64,000 bases of DNA from Lysobacterales bacterium (GTDB lineage Bacteria; Pseudomonadota; Gammaproteobacteria; Xanthomonadales; SZUA-36). Below are positions 5,013 to 41,232 of the stretch, in pieces (the stretch's first letter is position 1; each line of letters begins with the position of its first letter). The notes beneath the pieces were generated by a model, which ran no database searches, was not told the origin of the DNA, and saw only the letters and a program-made list of their open reading frames with translations. A program made the position numbers and the translations under genes. The stretch is taken from contig JAKITK010000001.1 in the NCBI GenBank assembly GCA_021648125.1, positions 1 to 64,000 on the forward strand, written 5' to 3'.

Positions 5013-8000
5013 ATGAAGTATTATTGTATCTTGTTATTTCTAGTGTTCAGTTCAGTAACATTCGCTGCGAATAAACCGCTTACTGATTATGAAGGAACGC
5101 TGATCGTCCAGTGGGGTGATACTTTTAACCGTGGAAAGGCTGGTTCGGTGGTGAATTATTATTTGCACACCGGCGACCAAAAAATAAAATTACGCATCAG
5201 TGATGAGATGAAGGCAGCCCCTCATGTTCGGCACTGGTTAGGTAAACAGGTGAAAGTTAGATCAACCACCACAGGCTCAAAGCCAGCTGAGATTCGGGCT
5301 AATTCTATTGAGCTATTAAGCAGCGAAAATTCGAGTCACGAACTTACTGGATCACAACCCTGGGTCAGCCTGTTATGCAAGTTTAGCGATATCACCGATG
5401 AACCAGAAGACCTGAATTACTTTCAAGAAATGTATGCCAACCAGCCTGGCGGCCTTGATCATTATTGGCGCGAAGTTTCTTATAATAATATCAATGTAGC
5501 CGGATCTATCGCCGTCGACTGGGTTACATTGCCTTCCACCCATGAGACCTATATAAAAACACCAGGTGAAGATGGTGCTGTTCCTGCTGATACTGACCTG
5601 GACCTTTTATTCAATGACTGTGTAGCAGCAGCTGACCCCTTCGTGGACTTCTCAAACGCTGACGGTAACGGCAATAGTTTTGTCGGCATTAATTTGATGT
5701 TTAATGAATTAATAGGTTGCTGTGCTTGGGGTGGTGGTATAACAGCTGATTTGGATGGAGAGTCCAAGCACTGGCGAACGACCTGGAATCCACCATGGGC
5801 ATTTCGTAATGTGAGCGTTATTGTGCATGAAATGGGGCACGGTTTTGGCCTTCCTCATACTAATAATTCAGATATGGATTTTAACCCTTACGACAACCCC
5901 TGGGATGTGATGAGTATGCTCCGGCCCTATGTTGTCGAAGATCCTGTTTATGGTGGTCGAGGGAAGCATATTAATGCTTATCACAAACTGCAATTAGGCT
6001 GGATTGAGCCAACCGAAATTTTTAATGTAAGTGGCGATACCAACGCTACAATTATTATTGACGAGACCTCCTTAGCAAGCACCAGCAACTACCGAATGGC
6101 ACAAATCAACCTAGAAAACCAGAGCTATTATACGATTGAGGCGAGGAAAAAAGCCGGCGAGTATGAGGCTGGATTGCCGGGTAGCGCAATCATTATCCAC
6201 CATATAACTAATGAAAAGCGTGAGCCTTCCTGGGTTGTTGATGCAGATAACCCCGCCGCAGAGCGCGCCGATACGGAAGGAGTAATGTGGAAAGTTGGGG
6301 AAACTTTTGTCGATATGGATAACGGCTTTAAACTCGAAGTGCTGGCTGAAACTACGAATGGGTTTGAAGTCAATATAGTGCTTACCGATAAGCTTGAAAA
6401 GGTGGACATCAATACACCATTCTCATCCGGTTCTCAATTACACCCAATAAAAGGCCTGGTCGCCATGCCTGATGCTGAATTTCAGGCTGTGGGCCTAGTC
6501 AAGCCAACGATCCGAACCGAAGTCGTAGTAAGTGACGGCACTCCATTTGAACCATTTAATGGCGATGGCGGGAATATAGTCGAACTATTTGATGTTCCTG
6601 CAGATGCTTTACTGCTAAGGGCCACGATTGGAAATACTCAGGCCTTTGATATGGATCTGTATATAGGCTTAGATAGCAATGGCAATGGCAGCCCGGACGA
6701 GGATGAGCTTGTTTGTTTTGGTCAATTATGGGGTGTTTCTGATGAGCTTTGCGAAATAGTATCACCGGCTCCTGGTCAATGGTGGGTTATGATGCAGGCA
6801 TTCTTGAACCCTGTAGAAGTAGAGGCCACTTTGTCAGCAGCAGTGGTGGTTGGCACAAACGCTGAAGCGGTTTTAACAGCGACAGGCCCAGCTATTCTGG
6901 CTGAAAACTCAGAGGGTCAGTTGCGAGTCAGTTGGCGGGATGTTCAAGTAGCTCAAGATGAGCAATTATGGGGTGCAATTGCCGTGGGAACAACACCTTC
7001 TAGCCCACAAGACCTAGTTGTAGTTCCAGTCACCTATACCCGTACCGGTGAAGAGGATATACAAAAATCCATTATTCTTGGCAACGATAGCCCAGCATCA
7101 TTTGCTCTGCCAGCCGGTGCCACCCACAAGCGTTTGGTGTTTGATGTGCCTCCAGGCGGGGGCGTAGTGGACTTTTCATTAACTGCGGATAATCGTGCAG
7201 ACAATCGCGACATTAAGTTTAGAGTGCATCGTATGGCATTCAGAAATGCCTTTAATGATGCGCCTTTTGTTACTGAAATGCCTGCCAACTTACAGGGCAA
7301 GGGCCGAGATAGAGGTGGCCCTCAAGCAGCAAGAGTTAGTGTAAGCGATGCGGCTTTAACCCCCGGTCGTTATTATATTGCGGTTGAAAACATTGGTGAT
7401 GAGACTATCGGGGTGACAGCCAGAGCTGTTTATCAAGGGGGGAGTGAACGCATAAAACCGCGCACTGGCGTTTGGGGCGATGGATCCTACGGTGCAGGTG
7501 GTGCCCAGGGTTTTGAGTATGGCGAGGTTAATGGTGTTTGGTTTGGTATTTGGTATACCTATAATGAAGACGGCACACCCACATGGTACTCAATGGATGT
7601 AGGCGTATTAGACCCGATGAACAATAGTCACACGGTGGATATATTAGAGTTCACCAACAACCCGAAGGTAAACCCGCCAACTCAGAAATTCACCGTTGTT
7701 GGAAAAGCAACATTTACTGCCATTTCTGAAACAGATATGAAAATCAGCTATACCCTAAACGGTGAATATGGTGGTAGTAGCGCGGCCCCTCTTTCAACTA
7801 ACACCTGTATATTACAAGGTGGCAACCCTGCACCCATAACTGGAACCTGGGCACCGGATATCAACATAGCTGGCGGTATCGGGGGCTCGTCCGTTGAATA
7901 TGGCGTAACGGAAGCATTAATCCATTATATATATGATGACACTGGCGAACCTGTTTGGGTAATCAGTGGTAATCAACTTGCGGTCCCGGCGTATGAGGCA

Positions 8001-35842: not shown

Positions 35843-36334
35843 TTTATTGTTAAGTCTTGCTCGTTTTAAAGGTCTACCTAGCTTACGAAATACTCCTCCC
35901 CAGTAATGAGCGCTTGAACAAGACTCCATGGCGGTTGAGGTGGTCTTGGCTATTGTTTCGTGTAGTTGTGCTCGCCGCACTTTGCGGTTAAAAAACAACT
36001 TCCTAACCGCTCGCGGTAAACCCGCACGCTACGGCCATGCTTTGCTTCCATTGAGAGCATATTTTTACCCATTAAACGGTAGAAACCTATCGACCAAATA
36101 CTGAAGTTCGTGTAAATGGTTCTGGGAATGTGCATGTCCAGTCTGGATGTCACTAGTTAGGTGGCCAAAATAACTATGCCACTACCCTTTCGATTAGGGA
36201 AAGAACCACAATAAGAAGCTAATTAAGTCTGAAGAGAAGGCTACAAAAATTATGCTTTTGTGATTATTTCGTGATTAATTCCTAGCTTGATAGTGTTAAA
36301 GTGCATAGCTACCTTAAACTTAGAGATCATCATC
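35843..36334. other. Long intergenic region, no gene recognised
   Basis: 492 bp. The only clear structure is GCGGTTA and TAACCGC around a 13-base loop near 35985-36011, followed by CGCGGTAAACCCGC. Small open frames on either strand lack ribosome binding sites and recognisable products. The region may be the remnant of something that came with the amidohydrolase gene. Confidence 0.5.
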
Positions 36335-37057
36335 GTGAAATTTACCTTGAATACCTTGAAATTCATCTTGAAATCAACCTTGCTGTCCCTAGTGTTGCCA
36401 CTTGCATTTATAGTGCCGGCCCAAGCTGGGGAGTACTCAGCTCAATACAGGGTTACTTTTGTTGGTACATGGACTCCCGACTCTCACCCTACCGATTTCC
36501 CTGGAGGGGCTCATTTTTCTCCTCTAATTGGTAATACCCACAACGAAGAGGGCTTTATCTGGCAGGCTAATGAAATAGCGACAAATGCTATACGACAAAT
36601 GGCAGAAACCGGTGGCACTTCTCTTTTAACTAACGAAATTAACAATATGATTATGAATACCGCTAGTGCGGAAAGCCTTATACGCGGCTCTGGTAATATA
36701 GGTGCTGTGGGTATGGATGCAATCGAATTTGATGTCTCCGAATCTCACCCGTTATTTAGCATAGTGACCATGATTGCTCCCAGTCCAGACTGGTTTGTTG
36801 GCGCGCACGGTATAGATTTACTTAATAATAATGGTGTATGGATTAGTGAATTAACGGTAGATTTATTACCATATGATGCTGGAACCGATAGCGGTAGCAC
36901 ATTCACTTCTGCTAATAGTGCCACTTCACCCAGAGTACCCATTCAACAAATCAACCAATCGCCTTTACCGGGTAATGTACCTTTAGGCTCTCTTATATTT
37001 GAGCTAATAAGCACTGAAGGTTCACCAGGTTTTATATTTATCAATGGCTTTGAATAA
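36335..37057 (+). CDS. Secreted spondin_N-domain protein
   Basis: 240 residues from the GTG at 36335; the longer frame begins with a TTG at 36287 that has no ribosome site and would spoil the signal peptide. From 36335 the N terminus is basic and hydrophobic and ends VPAQAG, a good signal peptidase site. The mature protein matches the spondin N-terminal domain: YRVTFVGTWTPDSHPTDFPGGAHFSPLIGNTH, FIWQANEIATNAIRQMAETGG, and DWFVGAHGIDLL. In animals this fold is found in extracellular matrix proteins; bacterial versions are secreted and of unknown function. It is flanked by long non-coding stretches and appears monocistronic. Confidence 0.82.
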   Translation: MKFTLNTLKFILKSTLLSLVLPLAFIVPAQAGEYSAQYRVTFVGTWTPDSHPTDFPGGAHFSPLIGNTHNEEGFIWQANEIATNAIRQMAETGGTSLLTNEINNMIMNTASAESLIRGSGNIGAVGMDAIEFDVSESHPLFSIVTMIAPSPDWFVGAHGIDLLNNNGVWISELTVDLLPYDAGTDSGSTFTSANSATSPRVPIQQINQSPLPGNVPLGSLIFELISTEGSPGFIFINGFE

Positions 37058-37321
37058 AACAGTTAGATAACCACCGATGCTCCATAAGGAAACTCTGATT
37101 TATTCTAAGTGAAGTAGATTACTCTCCAAGGAGCACATAATTGTAGGGTTGGCACTTATACCCACGCGTCAAAACTAACAAGAGCAACCACCCGTCGCAA
37201 GTAGTATCTATTTGATAAGCGTGGGCATAAATGTCCACGCTACTCGACTTGGCCCGAGTTCTTAGAAGCTGGTTTGTTATGAATCAATTGTGCTCTAACC
37301 CCAAATACTTTCATTTCTTTC
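37058..37321. other. Intergenic region with palindromic repeats
   Basis: Space between the spondin-domain gene and the metal operon. It holds the palindromic repeat pair at 37156-37240 and otherwise nothing I can identify. Confidence 0.5.
37156..37240. repeat. Pair of REP-like palindromes
   Basis: TTATACCCACGC (37156-37167) is the near-perfect complement of GCGTGGGCATAA (37219-37230), and the latter also pairs with TGTCCACGC just after it (to 37240), so two alternative hairpins are possible. GTAGGG-TTGGCA precedes the first unit. GTGGGCA/TGCCCAC palindromes of this sort are commonly dispersed between genes. Confidence 0.5.
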
Positions 37322-37353
37322 TTGACCATGAAGTATGCTTCATGGTTTATCAT
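37322..37353 (+). promoter_or_regulatory. MerR-type promoter with 20-bp spacer and operator dyad
   Basis: TTGACC (37322-37327) and TATCAT (37348-37353) are separated by 20 bp, longer than the normal 17. Inside lies a perfect dyad, ACCATGAAG-TATG-CTTCATGGT (37325-37346). Over-long spacers filled by a dyad are the hallmark of promoters that MerR-family activators twist into shape; the ACC...GGT ends resemble CueR-type sites. The predicted start of transcription, near 37360, leaves GGAG (37362-37365) just before the MerR start. Confidence 0.88.
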
Positions 37354-37374
37354 GGCAGCCTGGAGAATATGATA

Positions 37375-37791
37375 ATGAGCCTAATCAGCATCGGGAAAGT
37401 TGCTAAAGAAACCATGGTAACGGTAGAAACAATACGCTTCTACGAAAAACAAGGCCTACTTGTGACTCCACAGCGCAATGCGTCCGGCTATCGTCAGTAT
37501 CCGCAAGATGCGATAAAAAGAGTATTCTTTATCCAGCGGGCTAAAGAAGTTGGATTCACCTTAAAAGAAATTAAAGAGTTACTCTGTTTGAGAAAGAAGC
37601 CTGGCACTTCCTGCACAGAAATAAAATTGCGCTCATTAGAAAAAATCGAAGAAGTAGAGAAGAAAATACAGGACCTTGGGAAAATCAAACAAGCCCTTTC
37701 GTTGATGGTAATGCGCTGTTCTGGATCAGGCGATTTATCAGACTGTCCCATATTAGAAACCCTGGATTTTGGGGAAACCCGAAGTGACTAA
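37375..37791 (+). CDS. MerR-family metal-responsive regulator
   Basis: 138 residues from the ATG at 37375, chosen by GGAG 9 bp upstream and by the promoter at 37322-37353, which lies inside the longer open frame. The helix-turn-helix reads SIGKVAKETMVTVETIRFYEKQGLLVTPQRNASGYRQY. A long dimerisation helix follows, with cysteines where mercury-type MerR proteins bind metal: LRKKPGTSC at about residue 80, then VMRCSGSGDLSDCPILETL near 113-122 (MerR uses Cys82, Cys117 and Cys126). So a thiophilic metal such as mercury, cadmium, lead or zinc is likely. It is first in an operon with an outer-membrane-type protein and MerP- and MerT-like proteins; the next gene overlaps its stop by 8 bp. Confidence 0.92.
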   Translation: MSLISIGKVAKETMVTVETIRFYEKQGLLVTPQRNASGYRQYPQDAIKRVFFIQRAKEVGFTLKEIKELLCLRKKPGTSCTEIKLRSLEKIEEVEKKIQDLGKIKQALSLMVMRCSGSGDLSDCPILETLDFGETRSD

Positions 37792-38596
37792 AACTTTAAT
37801 TTTAGCCATACTACTTATCCTTGCCAGCAATCTGGTCTGGGCGCATGATCCAATATTTGGTATGGGTCCGCATGTATTGTTTAAACAAGGCATTGAGGCA
37901 TCTATAGAGATAGATAGCAATAAATCTGCCGAAAAACAAGAGTTTATCCACGCTCTTCAATTAACCTACGGTATTACTGGGAACTGGTCGGCAGGCATAG
38001 AGATACCTTATGCGTTCAAACAAAGGTACGGGGCTAATAGTCAGGGGTTCGCCAATCTTAATATATTTACAAAATACAGATTTTGGCGTAAAGACAGTCT
38101 GGGCTTACAAGAAAGTGCTGCCGTAATTCTGCAGGTCAAAACCGATAGTGGAAGTATTACCGACACCCCGGCCTTGGGAACCGACACAACTGATGGTATT
38201 GTTGGCCTTGCCTATGGCTATGAAGGCCGCACCTGGTACCGCTGGGCCAGTTTGCGTTATCGGTATAATGGAACCACTAATGCTGGGCTGCAACGCGGCA
38301 ATAAGGTTCTATTGGACTTAGTTGCCGGTGTGCGCACCAACTTGACCAGCTACACTGAAGCCGACACTGTTTGGTTACTGGAATTAAATGGCGAGTTTTC
38401 TGACACAACAAACTTAAATGGCTTTGATATTGCAAATACAGGCGGTAGGCAATGGTTTTTATCCCCAGGCATTTTTTGGACCAAAAGAAATTTTGCAATT
38501 AAAGCAGGCCTGCAAATTCCCATTACTGCCAGCTTGAATGGCAATCAAAATCAGGATGACTATCGAGCCAAATTGGTTTTTGAATGGCATCCATAA
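37784..38596 (+). CDS. Outer-membrane-type beta-barrel protein of the metal operon
   Basis: About 270 residues from the GTG at 37784, which overlaps the MerR stop; an in-frame TTG at 37769 is less likely. A signal peptide (TLILAILLILASNLVWA) ends at AHDPIFGMGPHVLF, which keeps two histidines at the mature N terminus that could bind metal. The rest alternates short amphipathic strands, often with aromatic ends (LTYGITGNWSAGIEIPYAF, FTKYRFWRK, YRWASLRYRYNG, LLDLVAGVRTNL, LLELNGEFSD, FAIKAGLQIPI, YRAKLVFEWHP) and a terminal aromatic residue region, as in outer-membrane barrels. I do not recognise a named family, but similar proteins occur beside metal transport genes. Role: possibly metal passage or sensing at the outer membrane. 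Confidence 0.72.
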   Translation: MTKTLILAILLILASNLVWAHDPIFGMGPHVLFKQGIEASIEIDSNKSAEKQEFIHALQLTYGITGNWSAGIEIPYAFKQRYGANSQGFANLNIFTKYRFWRKDSLGLQESAAVILQVKTDSGSITDTPALGTDTTDGIVGLAYGYEGRTWYRWASLRYRYNGTTNAGLQRGNKVLLDLVAGVRTNLTSYTEADTVWLLELNGEFSDTTNLNGFDIANTGGRQWFLSPGIFWTKRNFAIKAGLQIPITASLNGNQNQDDYRAKLVFEWHP

Positions 38597-38608
38597 GGAG
38601 ACTACGAT

Positions 38609-38908
38609 ATGAAACGCATTTTATTCGCAATATTAATGGCCTGGAGCGTGACGGCTTTGGCAGAAAATGTACAGTACACGATGCGCGTAGATGGTATGGC
38701 CTGCCCGTATTGTGCCTATGGGATTGAAAAGAAACTCAAAGCAATTGAGGGCATACAGAGTATTGATATTGATTTGGATAAAGGCCTGGTTATCGTCATT
38801 AGCGATCAGAGCGTAGACCTGAGCGATAAGAAAATGACCAGCTTATTCCAAGATGCGGGTTTTACCTTTCGGAGCATGAAAAAGGCTGCGGTGGTGGATG
38901 AAGACTAA
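38609..38908 (+). CDS. Periplasmic heavy-metal-associated protein, MerP-like
   Basis: 99 residues. A signal peptide (KRILFAILMAWSVTALA) precedes a single heavy-metal-associated ferredoxin-like domain: VQYTMRVDGMACPYCAYGIEKKLKAIEGIQSIDIDLDKG. The metal-binding motif is CPYC instead of the more common GMTCxxC, but GMxCxxC is kept. MerP-like proteins pick up Hg(II) or other soft metals in the periplasm and hand them to the membrane transporter. AAGGAG lies 8 bp before the ATG. The last 11 bp overlap the membrane protein gene that follows, implying coupled translation. Confidence 0.88.
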   Translation: MKRILFAILMAWSVTALAENVQYTMRVDGMACPYCAYGIEKKLKAIEGIQSIDIDLDKGLVIVISDQSVDLSDKKMTSLFQDAGFTFRSMKKAAVVDED

Positions 38909-39287
38909 ACCACCTGCTAACACGCTCAGTTGGTTAAGCTTATTCAGTAGCACCGGTACTTTAATCTGCTGTGCATTACCAATTGTTTTGGTGACACTAG
39001 GGCTTGGAGCCAGTGTTGCGGCTTTAACCAATGCCTTTCCTTTCCTGATTTTCCTGAGTATTCATAAAGCCTGGGTTTTCTTTATTTCGGGATTGCTACT
39101 GACATTCACCGCTTGGTTAATTTACCGGCCGGCAAGAACCTGCCCCAGCGACTCACAGACGGGTGATTTATGTACGCGCGCACACATCTGGAATCTGCGT
39201 ATTTTTTGCTTATCCACACTCATTTGGGTGACTGGCTTTATTGCAGCATTTCTTGCCTTACCCCTGCGTATTTTCTTTGAGAGTTGA
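38898..39287 (+). CDS. MerT-like inner-membrane metal transporter
   Basis: 129 residues, three membrane segments (about 12-38, 44-66 and 90-118). The first carries a vicinal cysteine pair in STGTLICCALPIVLVTLGLGAS, and the loop between the second and third carries TCPSDSQTGDLC. That arrangement, a Cys-Cys pair in the first helix and a second cysteine pair in the loop, is the one used by MerT to receive Hg(II) from MerP and pass it inward. Sequence similarity to classical MerT is otherwise modest. No merA (mercuric reductase) follows; the next features are pseudogenes on the other strand, whose end overlaps this gene slightly. Confidence 0.75.
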   Translation: MKTKPPANTLSWLSLFSSTGTLICCALPIVLVTLGLGASVAALTNAFPFLIFLSIHKAWVFFISGLLLTFTAWLIYRPARTCPSDSQTGDLCTRAHIWNLRIFCLSTLIWVTGFIAAFLALPLRIFFES

Positions 39288-39303
39288 AATTGTGCTTGCA
39301 AGC

Positions 39304-39403
39304 GGCAAAACGAGCACTGTCGATAATCAAGGGTTTATTGAACCTATCGCATAGCTCTTTTACCGCACGAATATTTGCTATCGAAACCGGCTGCCCAGCA
39401 CCG
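39304..39403 (-). repeat. Duplicated internal fragment of tnaA
   Basis: These 100 bp match 40570-40669 inside tnaA without gaps and with about nine mismatches (about 91 percent). In the minus-strand frame they read GQPVSIANIRAVKELCDRFNKPLIIDSARFA, versus GQPVSMENIRAVKELC... in tnaA. The copy is fused in frame to the broken S41 peptidase. Confidence 0.85.
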
Positions 39404-39843
39404 ATATCAAACCCATGAACACCTTCACCTAGCAACGGCCCTACGGCAGCGATCATTGGCCACATATTGCCTCCAGTATTCTGGCGCAAGTCTAGCACCC
39501 ACCCACAGACACCAGCCGACTCAAGAGACTGTATTATTTCGTGTCCCGTTTTAGCATACTTCTTGGCTTCCAGGTCATTACTTTCGCCACTAAAACTTTC
39601 GAGTGCAATATAAGCTATATTTGGCTCTAGTTTGTGCCCATGAATAGCGCCTCCCTCACTACGGTTTGGCACTTCTTTCGAGTTAACCATTAAACGACTA
39701 TGACCATCATTAAGCTTCTGGATAGCCACTCTAGCAGCAGCGTATGCCTGATCAATGGTTTGCATACCCGCTGCGGCGGTATTACCAGCGTTTCGCACTT
39801 CAGCCCAATCAATATTCTTGCGGTTAACATGGCGTGCCTCTAA
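39404..39843 (-). pseudogene. Broken S41 family peptidase
   Basis: Beginning directly after the tnaA stop codon and in the same frame, the sequence reads EARHVNRKNIDWAEVRN, AIQKLNDGHSRLM, HKLEPNIAYIALESFSG and GWVLDLRQNTGGNMWPMIAAVGPLLGEG, which are the S41 (C-terminal processing or tricorn-like) peptidase segments up to the lysine/serine region. The start of the protein and the end after GEG are missing; the latter is replaced by the tnaA fragment and then a few dozen unrelated codons to 39238. The catalytic SxxG... segment is not complete. I regard it as a pseudogene created by recombination with tnaA. Confidence 0.78.
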
Positions 39844-41232
39844 TCACTTAAAACCAGAACCCAACGGTTTTAGTTTTGCCGTGAAGTGGCGTAAGGACTG
39901 CGGCTCATAAGTGACTTCCATACCGGGAATTTCGCTGGTGCTTCCAACCAATTCCTCAAACACTTCGATCATGTAATCTGCCTGCGCTTGTGTGTATACT
40001 CGCCGTGGCATTGCCATTCTTACTAACTCCATAGCTGCAGGTTTTTCACTGCCATCGGCTTGCCTGCCAAACATTAGCGAGCCAATTTCAACCGTGCGAA
40101 TACCCCCCTGAATATACAGGGCAATGGCTAATGCTTGCGCAGGATATTGCAAAGCTGGGATATGCGGTAGCATTTTACTGGCATCAATAAATATGGCATG
40201 CCCGCCAGCAGGCTTCATCACCGGCACGCCAAGTTCATCTAGACCTTCGTTAATATATTGGATAGAGCGTATTCGGTACTGCAGGTAGTCTTCATTAACA
40301 ATTTCGCCAAGCCCTATGGCAAGGCACTCCATATCCCGACCGGATAAACCGCCGTAGGTAGGAAAGCCTTCAGTCATTATCAACCGGGTGCGGGCGCGTT
40401 CGGCCCATTCGTCATCATTCAGTGCTAACCAGCCGCCCATATTGGAGAAGGCATCCTTTTTCGCACTCATGGTCATGCCATCGGCGTAAGAGAAGATTTC
40501 TCGCACAATTTCCTTTACCGATTTATCCTGATAACCCTCTTCCCGCAGCTTAATAAAATACGCGTTTTCGGCAAAACGAGCACTGTCGATAATCAAAGGC
40601 TTATTAAATCTATCGCATAGTTCTTTTACCGCACGAATATTTTCCATCGAAACCGGCTGACCACCACCGGCATTGTTAGTGATGGTAATTTCCACCATCG
40701 GTATATTATCGCTCTCTGCAGTTAATAATGCTTCAAGTTTTTGTAAATTCATATTGCCTTTAAAGGGGTGAATTAAGGCGGTATTCATAGCCTCGTCAAT
40801 CACCAAATCGCGGGCATCAATACCGGCATCTTCAAAGTTGGCGCGGGTGGTATCAAAATGGGTATTATTCGGCACTATCATGCCTTTGCCTCGCCCTTGG
40901 GTGATAATTGAGGTGAGGATATGTTCCGCCGCCCTGCCCTGATGGGTAGGGATAATATGTTTGAACGGCATTAGTTCTCTAACGGCGGCTTCAAATCGAT
41001 AAAAAGAAGGCGAGCCGGCATAAGATTCATCACCTTTCATCAGCGCTGCCCACTGGTCGGTGCTCATAGCTGATGTTCCTGAGTCTGTTAGCAAGTCAAT
41101 CAGGACATCATCAGATTTTATAGAAAAAAGATTGTAGTCTGCCTCAGCAATAAGCTGCCGGCGTTCTTCAATTGTGGTCATTCGAATCGGTTCTACGGTT
41201 TTAATCCGGAACGGCTCAATAATTGTCCTCAT
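39844..41232 (-). CDS. tnaA: Tryptophanase
   Basis: 462 residues. PLP enzyme that splits L-tryptophan into indole, pyruvate and ammonia. IDLLTDSGTSAMS, PTHQGRAAEHIL, GGQPVSMENIRA, DSARFAENAYFIK and MTMSAKKDAFSNMGG (with the PLP lysine) are all present. Tyrosine phenol-lyase is very similar; RTVEIGSLMFGR agrees with tryptophanase (VEIG) and lacks the arginine (SMERG) that tyrosine phenol-lyase uses for the phenol ring, and DSARF also fits tryptophanase. The N-terminal region looks rather like tyrosine phenol-lyase, so some caution remains. I start at the ATG at 41232 rather than at 41298. An internal 100-bp piece is duplicated at 39304-39403. Fumarase lies upstream on the same strand. Confidence 0.88.
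   Translation of the reverse strand: MRTIIEPFRIKTVEPIRMTTIEERRQLIAEADYNLFSIKSDDVLIDLLTDSGTSAMSTDQWAALMKGDESYAGSPSFYRFEAAVRELMPFKHIIPTHQGRAAEHILTSIITQGRGKGMIVPNNTHFDTTRANFEDAGIDARDLVIDEAMNTALIHPFKGNMNLQKLEALLTAESDNIPMVEITITNNAGGGQPVSMENIRAVKELCDRFNKPLIIDSARFAENAYFIKLREEGYQDKSVKEIVREIFSYADGMTMSAKKDAFSNMGGWLALNDDEWAERARTRLIMTEGFPTYGGLSGRDMECLAIGLGEIVNEDYLQYRIRSIQYINEGLDELGVPVMKPAGGHAIFIDASKMLPHIPALQYPAQALAIALYIQGGIRTVEIGSLMFGRQADGSEKPAAMELVRMAMPRRVYTQAQADYMIEVFEELVGSTSEIPGMEVTYEPQSLRHFTAKLKPLGSGFK

Follow-up and report, generated by a model that had tools for sequence, protein, structure and literature searches.

The usual view of mercury-resistance (mer) systems in Gram-negative bacteria is that Hg(II) diffuses through general pores of the outer membrane. 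The regulator MerR activates transcription by correcting a long promoter spacer, and promoters of MerR-type activators normally respond to metal excess. The component table of PMC3466566 lists merR, merD, merA, merB, merP, merT, merC, merE, merF, merG, merH, arsR and TRASH, with no outer-membrane component among them, and the transport proteins listed in PMC8261052 are MerP, MerT, MerC, MerE, MerF and MerG. In the parts of these two papers at hand, diffusion is drawn as broken arrows and the carriers named are periplasmic and inner-membrane ones only; no outer-membrane mer component was met in these parts or in a search of open-licence papers. Here we describe a four-gene cassette in the first 64 kb of contig JAKITK010000001.1 of a Lysobacterales bacterium (assembly GCA_021648125.1; this whole stretch of 64,000 nucleotides is called the window). 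Its new aspect is that mer-type regulation and mer-type carriers are combined with an outer-membrane channel.

Like a mer operon, the cassette has a MerR-type promoter, a regulator with three cysteines, a periplasmic carrier with a CxxC motif and a MerT-related transporter with two cysteine pairs. It differs in having no MerA in the operon or in the assembly, in having a dedicated outer-membrane channel, in its gene order (merR-barrel-merP-merT on a single strand), and in that its MerR-, MerT- and MerP-like proteins all score under the curated cut-offs. We judge the chances to be about even that this is a self-contained, MerR-regulated conduit carrying an Hg(II)-type metal inward through both membranes. 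The features are collected in Table 1. A preliminary description of this DNA had proposed a promoter with a 20-bp spacer and a perfect dyad with 9-bp arms, a MerP-like protein with CPYC, and a MerT-like protein with Cys-Cys in helix 1 and a further pair in the loop, and all of these are borne out by the sequence. It had also proposed an outer-membrane-type protein starting HDPIFGMGPH: the type stands, but translation can start at the GTG at 37784, and HDPIFGMGPH probably lies behind a signal peptide.

Table 1. Features of the cassette, with window coordinates and the evidence for each assignment
Feature	Coordinates	Strand	Evidence
Whole unit	37321..39288	+	DNA homology (81.8%) with same-genus cassette; flanks unrelated
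MerR-type promoter/operator	37322..37353	+	-35 TTGACC, 20-bp spacer, -10 TATCAT; dyad with 9-bp arms
merR-like metalloregulator, 138 amino acids	37375..37791	+	PF13411 68.6 bits; TIGR02051 132.9 bits; 4ua1 alignment
Outer-membrane channel, predicted COG4313 fold	37784..38596	+	GTG start; AlphaFold2 pLDDT 95.5; 4rl8 Z 25.6
MerP-like periplasmic metal carrier, CPYC, signal peptide (by eye)	38609..38908	+	HMA PF00403
MerT-like inner-membrane transporter	38898..39287	+	Pfam MerT 20.3 bits; hhalign to MerT

The extent of the unit follows from comparison with a second genome of the same genus (G002), which has all four genes, coding for proteins 78–97% identical to those of the window. The DNA homology runs from one base before the -35 box through one base after the stop codon; because it is limited to the promoter and four genes, with unrelated flanks, we treat these as one unit. 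In the 13.8 kb around the G002 copy, no further open reading frame (ORF) of at least 80 amino acids matched the window at E 1e-15. The cassette would so seem to have been placed independently in the two genomes, unless its flanks were replaced. The merR and barrel frames overlap by a few bases, as do the merP-like and merT-like frames, and the promoter lies 5' of merR, so that merR is the first gene of the transcript and all four genes can be read as one unit.

The -35 box occupies 37322–37327 and the -10 box 37348–37353, and the dyad between them, ACCATGAAG-TATG-CTTCATGGT, lies at 37325–37346. Both of its arms are kept in G002, where the 4-bp centre is CATA instead of TATG and the flanks are changed. 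The spacer has the length found in Gram-positive mer promoters (20 bp), the Gram-negative length being 19 bp (PMC5027573). The dyad taken alone was ruled out as remarkable, since Markov sequence yields about as many: perfect 9-bp dyads fill six rows in the window, three of which are registers of one palindrome, compared with 0, 5, 1, 4 and 3 in five Markov sequences. The 32-bp combination of -35 box, dyad and -10 box has a single match in the window at up to 3 mismatches and none in 100 shuffles, a result that shows only an uncommon string, because the pattern was derived from the promoter site itself.

Translation of merR is taken to start at the ATG at 37375, which is also the start in the same-genus copy; the ATG at 37369 is a possible alternative. 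Among NCBIfam models the regulator scores best with TIGR02051, the Hg(II) MerR family, from which it differs by falling under the cut-off (150.85 bits), and next comes the CueR family with 127.4 bits. Among solved structures the order is 4ua1 (97.9 bits), CueR (92.1) and 5crl (80.1), where 4ua1 is the MerR of Bacillus and 5crl that of Tn501 (PMC5027573). The alignment with 4ua1 is free of gaps and places all three cysteines of the window protein in register with the Hg(II)-MerR positions, as they are in the Bacillus protein, and the same three positions are matched in the family alignment. This geometry points to a mercury-type three-Cys sensor, with metal binding predicted. In a MerR tree made by a quick method from few columns, the window protein is firmly joined only with the same-genus copy; CueR and CadR form long branches in this tree and were not used for filing. 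The window's own genome contains three MerR-family genes as judged by PF00376, the other two being, by eye, without the three-Cys arrangement, so that no metal system of this genome other than the cassette seems to have a three-Cys MerR.

No Pfam or NCBIfam model matches the barrel protein of the window; at E ≤1, PF13557 matches 29 of the 41 family members, and the window protein is among those without a match. The AlphaFold2 model, made from an alignment of 41 relatives, has 13 strand segments, which is consistent with a 12-stranded barrel. When compared by VIA-align, the nearest structure is the COG4313 channel 4rl8 (root-mean-square deviation 2.1 over 233 residues), and FapF is second with Z 25.1. 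With the COG4313 channels (Pput2725, SphA, TcpY; PF13557) and FapF, the protein would thus share the 12-stranded fold and a short N-terminal segment before strand 1, which has 16 residues in our model. In the solved channel Pput2725 about 14 N-terminal residues are folded into the lumen, and the COG4313 family has been linked to hydrophobic molecules (PMC4493636). The window channel stands apart from that family in adjoining metal-carrier genes and in its conserved HDP-x-F-x-x-GPH N-terminus. The HDPIFGMGPH segment (from 37844) follows a signal peptide ending VWA and is likely the N-terminus of the mature protein, not the translation start. A simple pattern finds HDP directly after the apparent end of the signal peptide in 38 of 42 barrel ORFs, with Ala (37) or Ser (1) at position -1. 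Residues H1, D2, P3, F5, G8, P9 and H10 are identical in 41/41 relatives; since the alignment rows were cut at H-(D/E/N)-(P/A), the invariance of residues 1–3 is partly chosen, which is not the case for residues 5, 8, 9 and 10. One locus (L091) was excluded from this alignment, as the motif hit the wrong place. The conserved N-terminal His is reminiscent of copper ‘histidine brace’ sites, and a metal role for it is a guess. Barrel relatives on Legionella plasmids (three records, 23–24% identity) were not used; their near neighbours in the two inspected are non-metal genes. In one inspected Legionella plasmid merA, merC and merR lie ∼3.4–5.7 kb from the barrel relative.

The MerP-like protein is recognized by the HMA model PF00403 (41.7 bits, above the cut-off of 24.8) and scores 38 bits with the MerP model TIGR02052, under the cut-off of 92.55. 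CPYC or CPFC is found in 44 of 48 MerP-like proteins that end ≤400 nt upstream of a MerT-like frame. In the MerT-like protein, Cys24-Cys25 lies in helix 1 and Cys82 and Cys92 in the loop, and the score with the Pfam MerT model PF02411 is under the cut-off of 32.9. When 46 MerT-like relatives are aligned by hhalign with 10 true MerT proteins, the probability is 92.6 and the E value 4.6e-7 over 91 columns. The CC is found in 80/80 relatives and the loop Cys pair in 79/80, although the first count is not independent, because CC played a part in the choice of the alignment rows and of one search pattern. By these alignments the window protein is a distant MerT homologue with two Cys pairs. MerT-like and HMA domains are also found together in metal islands in the MerT/CopZ fusion-like selenoproteins of NF045683 and among the GDCCVxC neighbours on Vibrio plasmids. 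However, the cassette reaches only 15.9 and 27.6 bits with NF045683 (cut-off 375), and the Vibrio plasmids encode the two parts, MerT-like and HMA, as a fusion next to a GDCCVxC (seleno)protein, unlike the separate genes of the window. Such sets of a MerT-MerP fusion, a GDCCVxC (seleno)protein and a helix-turn-helix regulator were seen at 6255–8125 of L134 and 6269–8404 of L133; the regulator of L134 is MerR-type, and one Vibrio plasmid copy adjoins copper-resistance genes.

To place the cassette among its relatives we used two short conserved patterns of the MerT-like protein, one containing CC, which gave 187 relatives; the best 80 of the 187 loci were kept, and counts of loci below refer to these. 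They comprise 66 loci from Gammaproteobacteria, the others being from Beta-, Alpha- and Epsilonproteobacteria and one planctomycete, or unplaced. Four record titles name tubeworm symbionts and 12 more carry HyVt or Dive isolate names, which suggest vents. A MerP-like protein is present in 74/80 loci. In 66/80 loci the strand of the MerT-like gene also carries a barrel of either of two types no more than 3 kb away, and so it does in 49 of the 57 loci with at least 2 kb of sequence on both sides; the 499 kb of the same contigs that lie more than 4 kb away gave 0 barrel matches. In many loci the operon that holds the trio of channel, MerP-like and MerT-like genes has no merA. Longer cassettes also contain a second barrel, a protein with NHL repeats, a membrane protein resembling DsbD and, at the end, a MerR-type regulator. 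The additions in L054, L056, L093 and L118 are a second barrel of COG4313 type, starting ITFNTALP, the NHL-repeat protein, or a long membrane protein that matches DsbD_TM in L054 and has no Pfam match in L093. Four loci of tubeworm endosymbionts (L055, L058, L071, L086) carry MerT-like and MerP-like genes with a shorter barrel (264 amino acids) and without the HDP barrel, near ArsP-type permease and ArsR/phosphatase-type genes. Viral contigs scanned with the MerT-like model, the barrel model and the operator pattern gave no relative, and viral spread of the cassette was set aside on these scans.

Many of the relatives appear to be regulated differently from the window's cassette. A cassette-neighbour regulator with two Cys is found in 44/80 loci, with C-x6-C spacing in 42 of the 44 and with R, K or Q where the Hg(II)-type MerR has its third Cys (the motif used for the regulator alignment skipped 22 of 73 MerR-type ORFs). 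The operator of these two-Cys regulators is TTGACCTGGAGT..ACTCCAG. Its strict form, TTGA..T.GAGT..ACTC.A, occurs 41 times in the 1.09 Mb of loci and 0 times in Markov copies, a comparison in which the pattern was built from sites in the same loci and the control is one simulated copy per locus; 37 of the 41 sites, in 34 loci, share the strand of the MerT-like frame and are placed either at its start or in the 2.5 kb upstream of it. In L088, L092, L095 and L097 still another regulator, richer in Cys, stands 5' of the cassette. The window's genus thus uses the same transport genes as the trio relatives under a different regulator and operator.

We next consider MerA. The window's own genome (3.2 Mb, 111 contigs, 96% complete) has 11 matches to TIGR02053, none above the cut-off, and there is no MerA above the cut-off on the cassette's own 152-kb contig (C53). 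The top three matches were rejected as hidden MerA: judged by eye from sequence and neighbours, two are lipoamide dehydrogenases (E3) and one a glutathione reductase, and in all three the C-terminal Cys pair is absent. Only one further HMA protein was found in this genome, judged by eye to be an ATPase of CcoI type with cbb3 oxidase genes as neighbours, and the metal exporters include at least two CzcA/CusA-family pumps and one P-type ATPase with an SPC motif. The preliminary description had asked for merA to be sought in the rest of the genome and had named a merA in the same regulon as a refutation; neither was found in the available assembly, and it was right that the uptake-type genes lack a MerA and are joined by a barrel gene. 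Its suggestion that the system may depend on a reductase elsewhere fits the relatives (below), but not the own genome or G002, so that its overall interpretation is supported in part.

Close relatives of the MerT-like protein go with MerA, which makes mercury the likeliest substrate. In 369 genomes of the class, 72 have MerA above the cut-off and 46 have a MerT-like match, the own genome included. With the own genome (G000) omitted from these co-occurrence counts, MerA is present in 21 of the 26 genomes with a close MerT-like match (≥165 bits) and in 51/342 others (odds ratio 24, Fisher p 3e-12); the line between close and weak was set after the scores were seen, and the p values here ignore shared ancestry. 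The window protein was included in the MerT-like model, which inflates the scores of its own genome. As a control for metal-rich genomes we used the CzcA/CusA family (presence at E ≤1e-200, which holds for 213 genomes, 210 of them passing the curated cut-off), found in 26/26 close genomes and 186/342 others: within CzcA/CusA-positive genomes MerA is still present in 21/26 close genomes compared with 40/186 others (p 5e-9). Within the loci themselves, MerA (≥430 bits with one MerA sequence) is seen in 17/80, in several cases beside a divergent HgMerR next to the barrel; L057 and L072 are below this line, yet their genomes have MerA above the cut-off. A search of whole genomes for the other loci found MerA above the cut-off in 26/50. 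This search left aside loci with MerA at ≥430 bits, L054 (split MerA) and repeat genomes, and a further six loci (L106, L111, L119, L126, L128, L129) were outside it. Among eight other relatives MerA is present in G008, G025, G044 and G130 and absent from G139 as from G002; in G054 a MerA fragment breaks off where the contig stops, and G001 lacks both MerA and the cassette.

If the cassette is an inward Hg(II)-type conduit, metal bound by the three Cys of MerR would switch on merR, barrel, merP and merT by correcting the long spacer, as the Cys geometry and promoter anatomy suggest. The channel, given its predicted fold, would offer the metal species a path across the outer membrane, and its first residues, with the conserved His1 and His10, may sit in the lumen as a plug, like those of the solved relative. 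The CPYC protein would take up the metal in the periplasm, and the MerT-like protein would relay it between Cys pairs to the cytoplasm. In many related genomes the Hg(II) would then be reduced by a MerA whose gene lies nearby or at another place. Because no MerA was found in the own genome, the route would end there in an unassembled MerA, a lost MerA or another sink, such as thiols or the CzcA-type and P-type exporters. The preliminary description had suggested that the system may import or sense a metal rather than resist it; since a MerR-type activator promoter normally answers metal excess, its presence argues for detoxification rather than nutrition.

Several observations weigh against the inward mercury conduit, and some of them bear directly on other explanations. 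MerA above the cut-off is absent from the own genome, from G002 (92% complete) and from G139, as well as from 24 of the 50 locus genomes (three of these, G590, G602 and G603, have a partial match), and only 1 of the 19 genomes with weaker MerT-like matches (<165 bits) has it. The structure model of the MerT-like protein has a pLDDT of only 74, and a fold search with it gave no match. The rate of Hg uptake by E. coli is reported to be equal with and without Mer transporters (PMC4570782). The two-Cys regulators of the 44 loci, with their separate operator, are no classical pointer to Hg(II), and CueR provides a precedent for a regulator with two Cys that answers Cu(I), Ag(I) and Au(I), not Hg(II) (PMC6899792). 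The same hardware could thus carry a monovalent soft metal, Cu(I) or Ag(I), with the Hg(II)-like features incidental. The universal presence of the CzcA/CusA family in close genomes, the occurrence within 8 kb of CusA-like genes (19/80 loci) and of CopA-like ATPases (11/80), the relative beside copper-resistance genes on a Vibrio alginolyticus plasmid and the likeness of the N-terminal His to copper sites all fit this; the third Cys of the window regulator, its best alignment with Bacillus MerR and the persistence of the MerA link within CzcA/CusA-positive genomes do not, and we regard a copper or silver route as rather improbable.

It is a fair question whether MerA is present in the organism and only absent from the assembly, as it would be if it lay on a plasmid that was left unbinned, in which case the cassette would serve ordinary detoxification with an extra channel. 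The assembly is in many pieces and not complete, relatives often encode MerA elsewhere in the genome (the 26 of 50), and in at least three genomes (G054, G590, G603) all that is seen of MerA is a fragment broken off at the edge of a contig; against this, the cassette of G002, which stands between unrelated neighbours, is also without MerA, as is the whole of C53. We see this as a serious but minority possibility. The absence of MerA would also cease to matter if the chain worked outward, the MerT-like and MerP-like proteins and the barrel expelling metal with no need for a reductase. A metal-induced importer without MerA would be expected to harm the cell, and the barrel fold is common to FapF, a secretion channel. 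However, published accounts have MerT and MerP move Hg(II) into the cell (PMC3466566, PMC8261052, PMC4570782), no energy source was seen in the cassette, and the co-occurrence with MerA fits import, so that an outward chain is unlikely. Finally, the missing merA is what a decayed remnant of a mer operon would leave behind, but four frames that are all open and overlap or adjoin as in an operon, the close identity of the proteins and the conserved operator arms in the same-genus copy, and the many loci with a trio and no merA in the same operon make decay highly improbable.

A few observations concern the surroundings of the cassette. The 9-mer AATTGTGCT is found in direct orientation on both sides of it, at 37286–37294 and 39288–39296; simple arithmetic gives ∼0.3 expected 9-mer matches for the stretches compared, and more in AT-rich DNA, so that the pair may mean nothing. 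Just past the MerT-like gene, a 101-bp piece of a tryptophanase-like gene is duplicated (39303–39403 and 40569–40669, 91% identical), with the first copy inside a minus-strand ORF (39238–39798) that also matches peptidase S41, a rearrangement scar beside the cassette. Directly upstream lies a gene for a Spondin_N domain protein (PF06468, 169 bits) at 36287–37057.

Taking the window and its relatives together, we tentatively put forward a wider picture, which we consider less likely than not: that of a dedicated conduit for mercury or another soft metal from the outer membrane to the cytoplasm, in a regulon separate from merA, mainly in Gammaproteobacteria and including several tubeworm symbionts and probable vent dwellers. 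The lumenal plug of its COG4313-fold channel would start with an exposed, possibly metal-binding His and hand the metal to a CP(Y/F)C carrier and a MerT-like transporter, and the window's genus would run it without MerA under a swapped, mercury-type regulator. Transport genes that are kept while their regulator and operator are swapped would amount to a natural experiment on the metal carried. If true, a channel tied to MerP-like and MerT-like proteins would mean a facilitated outer-membrane step for Hg(II), and such a step would have a bearing on how mercury cycles in marine settings rich in metals, and on the design of biosensors.

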